From positions 1 to 64,000 of the forward strand of contig NZ_QQZY01000010.1 of NCBI RefSeq assembly GCF_003351045.1: a stretch of 64,000 nt of DNA. The letters run 5' to 3'. A program made the translations under genes and the position numbers. Position 1 is the stretch's first letter, and every line of letters starts with the position of its first letter. This DNA comes from Gaiella occulta (lineage in GTDB: Bacteria > Actinomycetota > Thermoleophilia > Gaiellales > Gaiellaceae). The notes under the pieces are model-generated. The model was not told the origin of the DNA and ran no database searches. It worked only from the letters and a program-made list of their open reading frames with translations. Below are positions 1,334 to 3,512 of this stretch, in pieces.

Positions 1334-1839
1334 CCGCCGTCTCCTTGTGGCACGAGCACCGCGGGCTCGCGCTCGCCGCCGCCCGCTCCTACCGGCTGCC
1401 CGGAGCCGACCGCGACGACGTCCAGCAGGAGGCCCTCATCGGCCTGTGGTTCGCCTGCCGCTCCTACCGGGCCGAGCAGGGGCCGTTCCCGCCGTTCGCC
1501 CGCCTGGTCGTCGAGCGCCATCTCGCGGACTGCCTGCGCGGCGCGACGCGCGGCAAGCACACCGTGCTCACCGACTCCGTGCGCGTCATCCGCCGCGACG
1601 ACCGAGACGTCGACGCCGCGGCAACGATCGCGAGCGCCCACCAGGTCGCCGACGTGGCCGAGCAGCGCGACCGGCTGCGCAGGCTGATGCGGGCGATCGA
1701 CTCCGACCTGTCCGCGCTCGAGCGCCGCTGCGTCGTCAGCGCCACCTGCGGCCTGTCGTACGAGGAGATGGCGCTGCCGTGGAAGGTCGTCGACAACTCC
1801 CTTTTCCGGGCGCGCCGCAAGCTGAGACGGGCAGCGTGA
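1330..1839 (+). CDS. Phage-encoded sigma-70-family factor (SigH-like)
   Basis: 169 aa. An N-terminal region-2-like part (about residues 28-75: DDVQQEALIGLWFACRSYR then FARLVVERHLADCLR) matches the core-binding and -10-recognition helices of small sigma factors. The C-terminal part (about 130-167: LSALERRCVVSATCGLSYEEMA, then LFRARRKLRR) matches a region 4 helix-turn-helix. It is the second gene of the element, coupled by GTGA overlaps on both sides. Inference: it redirects host RNA polymerase to phage promoters, and the repeated CGATAGTAG word is a candidate target. A structural role such as terminase small subunit is unlikely given both sigma regions. Confidence 0.7.
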   Translation: MTAVSLWHEHRGLALAAARSYRLPGADRDDVQQEALIGLWFACRSYRAEQGPFPPFARLVVERHLADCLRGATRGKHTVLTDSVRVIRRDDRDVDAAATIASAHQVADVAEQRDRLRRLMRAIDSDLSALERRCVVSATCGLSYEEMALPWKVVDNSLFRARRKLRRAA

Positions 1840-2090
1840 GAGTCCCGACCGCACGCCAGTTCGGCTTCCTGCTGAAGCTCGGCTCCGGCGCGGCGGGCTT
1901 GTCGTGGCCGATGGGGCCGACCGAGCAGCTGCTCCGCCACGGGTGGGTGACAGCGGAGAAGTTCGACGGACGCTACTACCAGCTGGTGCGGATCACGCCG
2001 GACGGGCTGCGCGCGTTGGCGGCGGCCGTCGAACGGTACGGGCTGCCAGCACTCTTGGGCGAGGACGCCGGCAGCAAGGGGGCGGCGTGA
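1836..2090 (+). CDS. Small winged-helix-like protein, 84 aa
   Basis: The start is GTG 1836, overlapping the sigma gene stop (GTGA); its own stop overlaps the methyltransferase GTG at 2087. A central LLRHGWVTAEKFDGRYYQLVRITPDG stretch (broken here for length at residues about 29-54) looks like the recognition helix and wing of a winged-helix domain. No specific family recognised. Its place between sigma factor and methyltransferase suggests a regulatory or DNA-modification helper role. Confidence 0.6.
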   Translation: MRVPTARQFGFLLKLGSGAAGLSWPMGPTEQLLRHGWVTAEKFDGRYYQLVRITPDGLRALAAAVERYGLPALLGEDAGSKGAA

Positions 2091-2866
2091 ATGTCGGCTC
2101 CCTGTTCGCCGGCATCGGCGGCCTCGACCTCGCCGTCGGAGGCACGCCCGAATGGTTCTGCGAGGCCGACCAGCACTGCCGCGCCGTCCTCGAGCGGCAC
2201 TGGCCCGGAGTCCCGATCCTGCCCGACGTGCGCGACCTCGACGGCGGAACACCCCGCGTCGACGTGCTGTGCGGCGGGTATCCGTGCCAGCCGTTCTCCG
2301 TTGCTGGACGGCGGCGCGGAGAAGACGATGACAGGCATCTGTGGCCCGAGTTCGCGCGACTCATTCGCCTTCTACGACCCCGAGTCGTCGTCGCTGAGAA
2401 CGTCGCAGGTCACCTTCGACTCGGGTTCGACGCCGTGCTCTCCGACCTTGCCCGAGTGGGGATGCATGTGCGGTGGGGAGTTGTTCGAGCTTCCGACGCC
2501 GGAGCTCCTCACCGAAGGGCGCGGCTGTTCTTCGTTGCTGCCGACGCCGACCGCGATGGACTCCAGGTCGTCTGGCGGCAGCAACCCGTCGAACGTGACC
2601 CTGACGGACGCGGTCGAGAGGACGTCGCTTGGGGCGCGTACGAACCAGCGATCCGGCGGTGGGAACGTTCGCTCCGACGGCCAGCACCCCGGCCAACTGA
2701 CGATCGAGGACGACTGATGCCCGAGTTCGTCGAATGGATGATGGGGCTGCCCGCAGGCTGGACGGCGGGCCCGGCCCGGACGCACCGGCTCAGGATGTTG
2801 GGCAACGCCGTCGTGCCGCAGCAGGCTGCGCTCGCGCTTCGGCTGCTCACGGGGGAGGCGGCGTGA
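2087..2866 (+). CDS. C5-cytosine DNA methyltransferase
   Basis: 259 aa, GTG start overlapping the preceding stop. Motif order is canonical: motif I FAGIGG (7-12), motif IV GGYPCQPFS with catalytic Cys67, motif VI ENV (104-106), motif VIII HRRARLFF (about 142-149), and C-terminal motifs IX/X ending RMLGNAVVPQQAALAL. It transfers a methyl group from S-adenosylmethionine to cytosine C5, probably protecting phage DNA from host restriction. No restriction partner is adjacent. Third-position G+C drops sharply between about 2340 and 2715, where another frame is also coding (next entry). Length is short but complete for phage enzymes. Confidence 0.9.
   Translation: MNVGSLFAGIGGLDLAVGGTPEWFCEADQHCRAVLERHWPGVPILPDVRDLDGGTPRVDVLCGGYPCQPFSVAGRRRGEDDDRHLWPEFARLIRLLRPRVVVAENVAGHLRLGFDAVLSDLARVGMHVRWGVVRASDAGAPHRRARLFFVAADADRDGLQVVWRQQPVERDPDGRGREDVAWGAYEPAIRRWERSLRRPAPRPTDDRGRLMPEFVEWMMGLPAGWTAGPARTHRLRMLGNAVVPQQAALALRLLTGEAA
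2328..2717 (+). CDS. Out-of-frame coding region overprinted on the methyltransferase gene
   Basis: 129 aa in the +1 frame relative to the methyltransferase, from ATG 2328 with GGAG 6 nt upstream, to TGA 2715-2717. Its composition is that of a real protein: DSFAFYDPESSSLRTSQ, then SPTLPEWG, then ELPTPELLTEG, then SLLPTPTAMDS. From memory these resemble LPTPT-type segments found in phage proteins near cytosine methyltransferases. By my hand reading, codon third positions are mostly G/C in this frame (about 85%) but much less so in the methyltransferase frame over the same bases. Both frames therefore appear to be under coding constraint. Function unknown. The same frame upstream of 2328 reads as an ordinary Ala/Ser/Pro-rich shadow. 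Confidence 0.55.
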   Translation: MTGICGPSSRDSFAFYDPESSSLRTSQVTFDSGSTPCSPTLPEWGCMCGGELFELPTPELLTEGRGCSSLLPTPTAMDSRSSGGSNPSNVTLTDAVERTSLGARTNQRSGGGNVRSDGQHPGQLTIEDD

Positions 2867-3102
2867 CCGCCCGCGCCGGCGACCTCATCTACCGGATGCA
2901 CCCGTCGAGGGCGGTCACGTTCGCGTCGCCGCTGCCGCTCGCGCACGTGTGCGACCCCTCCGTCCAGCCTCACTTCTGGGGCGCCTACCGCCGCGACCAT
3001 CTCGACCCATGCGCCACCGGCCTCTGCCGCTACTGCCGCAGGCCGCTGCCCAACCCCGAGCCCGTTGCCGGGGAAAGCAACCGACTGGAGAAGGTGACCT
3101 GA
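2863..3102 (+). CDS. Small Cys-containing protein, 79 aa
   Basis: GTG 2863 overlaps the methyltransferase stop. The C-terminal half has CATGLCRYCRRPLPNPE, a possible half zinc ribbon. The N-terminal half (GDLIYRMHPSRAVTFASP) is not recognised. Coupled translation with the methyltransferase suggests the same transcript. Confidence 0.6.
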   Translation: MTARAGDLIYRMHPSRAVTFASPLPLAHVCDPSVQPHFWGAYRRDHLDPCATGLCRYCRRPLPNPEPVAGESNRLEKVT

Positions 3103-3107
3103 GACGC

Positions 3108-3512
3108 ATGCTGACCATACTCGCGATCACCACCCTGTTTGCCATTCTTGCGATTGTTCCGCGCGCGCTTGCGCAAGCAGCCCATACCTACCGGCCGACG
3201 CCGATGCCGAAGCAGTGGCAGCCGCCCGGCGCATGGCTCCGGCAGGCCATGTGCATTCACCGGCACGAGAGCGTCGACTGGCATCGCGCCGGACGAGACT
3301 GGCAGGGACGCCCGTCCCCCTACTTCGGCGGAATGCAGTTCCTGGTGTCAACATGGAGGCGTGCCGGCGGCTCGGGTCTGCCGTCGGATGCGTCGCCGCG
3401 CGAGCAGCTGTACCGCGCCTACCGCATCTGGGACATGGGGGCTGGCAGGATGGGCGACGGTCTCGGCTCGTGGCGCGAGTGGGGGACTGCGGGAGCGTGC
3501 GGGTTGCGATGA
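3108..3512 (+). CDS. Exported lysozyme/Rpf-like transglycosylase
   Basis: 134 aa, ATG 3108. An N-terminal hydrophobic segment (LTILAITTLFAILAIVPRALAQA) looks like a cleavable signal peptide ending at ALAQA. The mature part has CIHRHESVDW with a candidate catalytic Glu, then YFGGMQFLVSTW and a C-terminal WREWG..GACG, the pattern of the compact transglycosylase-like (resuscitation-promoting factor) fold. It would cleave peptidoglycan outside the membrane. It is far from the lysis genes (32996-34153), in the early region, so it may act on the host wall in the lysogen or during early infection. Confidence 0.75.
   Translation: MLTILAITTLFAILAIVPRALAQAAHTYRPTPMPKQWQPPGAWLRQAMCIHRHESVDWHRAGRDWQGRPSPYFGGMQFLVSTWRRAGGSGLPSDASPREQLYRAYRIWDMGAGRMGDGLGSWREWGTAGACGLR

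Follow-up and report, generated by a model that had tools for sequence, protein, structure and literature searches.

The window, a stretch of 64,000 nucleotides from Gaiella occulta, is a provirus (an IMG/VR contig, locus L011 in our set) lying at the beginning of contig C10 in a genome of 3.03 Mb. It contains a gene for a C5-cytosine DNA methyltransferase, here called alpha, which starts with GTG at 2087 and ends with the stop codon at 2866. Motifs I, IV (PCQ), VI (ENV), VIII and X are seen in its translation, and both the motifs and the PF00145 profile assign it to the C5-cytosine methyltransferases. Within this gene lies a second ORF, beta, from ATG 2328 to TGA 2717, in frame +1 relative to alpha. 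The preliminary description had noted alpha motifs VI and VIII inside the overlap, as well as a separate ATG and GGAG for the +1 ORF; the former are read in the translation, and the latter are found at 2328 and 2318–2321, respectively. The features of the locus are as follows.

2087–2866, plus strand: alpha, C5-cytosine DNA methyltransferase, 259 aa, with motifs I–VIII, IX and X (PF00145, E 1.3e-38; phrog_363, E 3.9e-68).
2318–2321, plus strand: GGAG, Shine-Dalgarno-like, 6 nt 5' of the beta ATG.
2328–2717, plus strand: beta, overprinted +1 ORF, 129 aa, with an N-domain and one LPTP module (tblastn; shuffle test; phrog_1008, E 8.7e-14).
2328–2537, plus strand: beta N-domain (FAxYDP..S.+TSQ...LPEWG.M.GG) over alpha motifs VI and VIII, with constraint in both frames (alignment A1; 4-fold-degenerate sites).
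2538–2624, plus strand: beta LPTP module (LPTPTAMDSRSSGGSNPSNVTLTDAVERT), shared with 10 more distinct loci, a proposed target-recognition cassette, for which frame 0 would be a passive spacer.
2625–2717, plus strand: beta C-terminal tail and stop, probably a shadow of the frame-0 motif WGxYxxAIxRWE (2630–2665), as judged by motif recurrence in relatives.
2717–2764, plus strand: alpha motif IX (MPEFVEWMMGLPAGWT), the equivalent of which is carried by the +1 frame in most relatives (hhalign of the motif IX versions).

Motif IX of the window begins at 2717, the exact end of the +1 ORF. As only about 60 residues separate motifs VIII and IX, alpha probably lacks a recognisable target recognition domain (TRD).

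Several neighbours of the methyltransferase gene were characterised by eye. An ORF at 101–406, at the contig edge and adjoining the provirus start, resembles IstB-type transposition helper ATPases; a small sigma-factor-like ORF (1330–1839) is located directly 5' of the methyltransferase; and the ORF at 2949–3512, 3' of it, has a signal-peptide-like start and a segment similar to transglycosylases or resuscitation-promoting factors. The second C5-methyltransferase of the host (L202; G000 contig C8, 39956–41077, minus strand) is a canonical single-chain enzyme without the +1 domain.

In the methyltransferase frame, GC3 is 0.85 upstream of the overlap, 0.615 inside it and 0.92 downstream, and the GC3 of the +1 frame within the overlap is 0.84, in agreement with the third-position pattern counted earlier by hand. 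Neither openness of the frame nor GC3 was accepted by itself as evidence of coding. The +1 frame is open in half of the synonymous shuffles described below, and 13% of the shuffles have an ATG with a Shine-Dalgarno sequence.

tblastn with the +1 product matched 46 phage records, with a best E of 8e-13, and every match lay under a gene annotated as DNA methylase. In the first ten annotated phage loci examined, among them those of a Synechococcus phage and of a Vibrio phage with 44% GC, the match was in frame +1 of the "DNA methylase" in all ten cases. Two queries used to scan viral contigs retrieved 42 and 489 relatives, respectively; the scan of bacterial genome contigs produced only eight loci, all distant, and no enterobacterial plasmid relative was found in the searches. 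Of the 181 loci that have the N-domain, 180 have it in frame +1 relative to an overlapping methyltransferase, at GC content from 34 to 73%, and none of the 181 has a standalone beta; most loci were retrieved by +1 or methyltransferase queries, hence this set is not a random sample. The single exception in the frame relation is L111, whose methyltransferase ORF in frame 0 is short and broken up, possibly as the result of an indel. The homologues come from phages of many hosts. The tie between LPTPT segments and cytosine methyltransferases, put forward in the preliminary description, holds, and so does its guess of an old shared arrangement. Hundreds of other phages have this hidden overlap.

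No credible family for the +1 products was found in Pfam and NCBIfam. The window matches phrog_1008, with E 2.1e-15 in the genome search, and the match lies in frame +1 at 2208–2585 and then in frame 0 at 2612–2851, as if the halves of one protein were shared out between the frames.

A conserved protein leaves apparent similarity in the frames that it does not use, so three tests for such shadows were run. For the shuffle test, synonymous codons of the methyltransferase were permuted 2000 times, retaining the protein and the codon usage. The +1 profile score of the window is 94.7, compared to 28.6 ± 9.2 in the shuffles with the maximum of 62.5, so that 0 of 2000 reach the real score. The same result, 0 of 2000, was obtained in seven of eight other phages, the exception being the Vibrio locus L004 (9 of 2000). 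The 4-fold-degenerate sites of the methyltransferase were compared in 119 loci: for pairs at 75–85% protein identity 61% of the sites differ before the overlap and 25% inside it, and for pairs at 85–97% identity, 46% and 16%, respectively, that is, the divergence is 2.5–3 times lower in the overlap. Finally, in 11 distinct copies of the window LPTP module, changes at the +1 codon positions 1, 2 and 3 number 363, 237 and 743 over all pairs; the counts are descriptive, as the pairs are not independent. The identity of these copies is 0.77 in frame +1 vs 0.46 in frame 0. Hence the module is constrained in the +1 frame only, contrary to the possibility, raised at the outset, that constraint would be confined to the methyltransferase frame. 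Alignment A1 is too divergent for pattern scans.

These results bear on the reading in which the +1 ORF is a shadow of GC-rich composition and of the conserved methyltransferase, or the DNA is conserved for some other reason. The frequency of open +1 frames at the GC content of the window is what this reading would predict, and such a shadow is indeed what the C-terminal tail of beta resembles: the WGxYxxAIxRWE motif recurs among relatives in either frame, and the tail after the module (2625–2714), situated over its conserved frame-0 copy, is probably passive. However, the three tests point the other way, as do loci at 34–41% GC with +1 ORFs longer than 400 codons, and the control set: among 30 random actinobacterial C5-methyltransferase loci from a PF00145 search, the +1 domain was seen in two clear cases and one marginal case. 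A generic shadow of all C5-methyltransferases is rejected by this control, and for the N-domain and the module the shadow reading is refuted by the whole of this evidence; for the ORF in general we consider it very improbable. These comparisons lend strong support to coding at the protein level in frame +1. The initial proposal that both frames are coding over 2328–2717 is borne out by the existence of +1 homologues, the constraint in frame +1 as well, and the shuffles.

In the window and many relatives, an ATG is located 12 codons 5' of the conserved FAxYDP, with AGGA, GGAG or AAGG upstream. L001 and L038 have a +1-frame TAG just 5' of the Shine-Dalgarno sequence and ATG, and in L160 and L162 a TGA immediately precedes a GTG start. 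In a third group, the start is about 49 codons upstream and has no clear Shine-Dalgarno sequence; an ATG is present there in 96% of cases vs 68% of shuffles. Over all type C loci, the near-start enrichment is modest (52% observed vs 26% in the null), because a subgroup starts at a closer-in GTG. A start 5' of 2328 in the window is not favoured, as the conservation begins at the 2328 ATG.

The stops just before the beta start in the four loci favour independent initiation over frameshifting. If the ribosome shifted frame after motif VIII, the +1 segment would add the modules to one polypeptide rather than form a second one; the phrog_1008 match, covering the +1 segment of the window and then frame 0, is compatible with this, and so is the switching of modules and motifs IX–X between frames among the loci. 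On the other hand, many loci have a start and a Shine-Dalgarno sequence at a fixed distance, some with the in-frame stop immediately 5', and the beta N-domain overlaps motifs VI–VIII, so that a shift after motif VIII would skip this conserved domain. Hence such a fusion is rather unlikely.

Beta proteins generally consist of the N-domain (FAxYDP..SSW+TSQ...S.TWP..G.M..G), encoded over alpha motifs VI–VIII, followed by one to seven modules, each with LPTP at the start and xLxxxV near the end. Module types are shared between distant phages, and the same type may occur in different frames. The module PRATDGTKGGPNQRGSSGDLMLPSAV is in frame +1 in L015, and its near-identical copy is in frame 0 in L191; L152 has the module SAADGNGGHMSRSGDRG.ELLL.G in frame 0, and L172 has it in frame +1. 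F1 mycobacteriophages (e.g. L008 and L160) have modules in frame 0, fused into one chain between its motifs VIII and IX. At least one LPTP module is present in alpha or beta in 151 of 153 loci. In seven loci (L022, L025, L028, L033, L036, L039, L041), a module of the window type (LPTPTAMD...VTLSDKV) is followed by a long helix-turn-helix-like insert (TIKELAAKTTIKKTTIEHWFRKDKAGFSYPSIENWEEIKPHL).

The placement of motif IX (FVEEMMGFPxGWT and variants) is complementary. By pattern, 94 distinct loci have it in beta alone, 45 in alpha alone, one in both and 13 in neither, the "both" case being a spurious match and most of the "neither" cases being variants missed by the pattern. Thus, in nearly all loci motif IX is in exactly one chain. 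The +1-encoded and frame-0-encoded versions align as profiles (hhalign, 97.4%, E 1.3e-11). Three layouts are seen: IX in beta with X in alpha; both in beta; and both in alpha, as in the window, where alpha has all numbered motifs and beta only the module segment. The commonest layout in the family has motifs I–VIII and X in alpha and IX in beta, and in L023, L061 and L173 the putative TRD modules, IX and X are all in beta.

The predicted structure of the F1 single chain is confident for the catalytic part and motifs IX–X and matches M.HhaI (Z 24, rmsd 3.2, 240 residues); the modules occupy the gap between motifs VIII and IX and are modelled with low confidence (pLDDT under 50). The AlphaFold model of beta alone is also of low confidence (pLDDT 56), and these low values count against the TRD role. 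The same module types sit inside alpha of related phages in the VIII–IX slot, the usual TRD position.

Given this anatomy, target recognition most likely comes in trans from beta. We consider it likely that alpha and beta form a two-polypeptide C5-methyltransferase comparable to M.EcoHK31I and M.AquI, in which the catalytic subunit and the overprinted target-recognition subunit share the same DNA; the translation of beta, its assembly with alpha and the setting of specificity by the modules are what we infer from the sequence. Alternatively, beta might be made as a protein of its own that travels with the methyltransferase but stays outside the enzyme, such as an anti-restriction or regulatory factor. 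Then the retention of the N-domain in F1 phages, where alpha already has the modules, IX and X, would be easily understood, as would the fact that beta has no credible sequence relative among solved structures, the sole match being at the chance level (E 0.44). But the only motif IX of about 90 loci is the one in beta, modules of the same types are found within alpha at the TRD slot, and no locus has beta without a methyltransferase, all of which makes a separate protein improbable.

The two-polypeptide enzyme would operate as follows. Frame 0 would yield alpha with the cofactor-binding and catalytic motifs I–VIII, and in the window phage also IX and X. The +1 frame would yield beta, initiated on its own at the Shine-Dalgarno sequence and ATG (2318–2330) and consisting of the conserved N-domain and one exchangeable LPTP module serving as the TRD in trans. 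The two chains would come together on DNA, where beta would pick the site, and alpha would flip and methylate the cytosine; the methylation presumably marks the prophage or phage genome against host restriction. In relatives, tandem modules may provide several specificities, and small indels may shift modules and motifs IX–X from one frame to the other with nothing lost, since both chains are able to carry them. For the family as a whole we lean, with less assurance, towards the view that the overlapping +1 frame holds specificity cassettes as a separate swappable subunit, whose modules would be gained, lost, reordered and moved between the chains by small indels, giving multispecific methylation from one short gene.

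In phages of Actinobacteria, Proteobacteria, Cyanobacteria and other hosts, this conserved protein has mostly escaped annotation, because it overlaps a well-annotated gene. If beta is indeed the specificity subunit, the targets of phage "orphan methylases" are not readable from the annotated gene alone, and cloning of that gene with the second frame disturbed would yield inactive or misassigned enzymes. The M.EcoHK31I curiosity would then become a widespread design, and the family would be an example from nature of recognition modules that can be exchanged within an overlapping frame, as well as a clean test bed for two proteins evolving on the same bases.

Parts of this arrangement may be recognised in existing annotation. 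In the mycobacteriophage Krili, the annotators called two overlapping "DNA methylase" genes in the same arrangement. In the Rhodococcus phage ReT1v-1 (L057, 2145–3049), a 225-aa "hypothetical protein" is called over the methyltransferase, and only a short C-terminal piece is named DNA methyltransferase; this is probably a misannotation due to the overlap. The phrog_1008 family ("DNA methyltransferase") is the same family, with the window beta at columns 62–150 and the alpha C-terminus at columns 225–318, but its name ignores the overlapping frame and the recognition role. Our literature search, of incomplete coverage, found no description of the alpha/beta overlap.

A 2025 study of the ShiLan gp65 methylase family in F1 mycobacteriophages described hidden HNH endonucleases in alternate frames (PMC11855218). 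The likeness is in the hidden alternate-frame ORFs of phage cytosine methylases; the difference is that the hidden ORF there is a homing-endonuclease insert, and the accessible part of that paper mentions neither a +1 subunit nor LPTP modules (PMC11855218). In L034, the +1 ORF (1797–3074) has a LAGLIDADG-like segment (WLAGLFEGEGYITL) between the N-domain and the first module; the insert, which resembles a homing endonuclease, thus shares the frame of beta rather than that of the methyltransferase, and may be relevant to the "lone LAGLIDADG" and "out-of-frame" inserts of the same source (PMC11855218). Enzymes of the Bacillus phages SPR, SPbeta, phi3T and H2 carry tandem target-recognition units in one enzyme, as cited in PMC8936443. 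By layout, the tandem LPTP modules resemble those units; the Bacillus phage enzymes, however, are single chains in one frame, whereas the LPTP modules are mostly in the overlapping frame.

The closest parallels are provided by two-polypeptide enzymes. M.EcoHK31I recognises YGGCCR, M.AquI recognises CYCGRG, and the small polypeptide of the former was reportedly read, in the original description, in an alternate frame inside the large gene. Both are natural two-polypeptide C5-methyltransferases, and fragment complementation is established for this class (PMC3404938). The small subunit of M.AquI comprises a part of the variable region and motifs IX–X (PMC3404938), similar to beta of L023, L061 and L173 with the putative TRD modules, IX and X; unlike M.AquI, the window has IX–X in alpha, and the phage subunits share hundreds of bases, read in two frames. 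In M.EcoHK31I, motif IX is on the smaller polypeptide, and the predicted TRD was placed in the larger subunit (PMC3404938), which counts against the TRD role of beta. Compared by description only, the split of M.EcoHK31I is the same as in the commonest layout of the family (I–VIII and X in alpha, IX in beta), but the phage beta also has LPTP modules, often several, and in the window motif IX is in alpha. Pieces of this organisation were already visible in the Krili gene pair and the PHROGs family.
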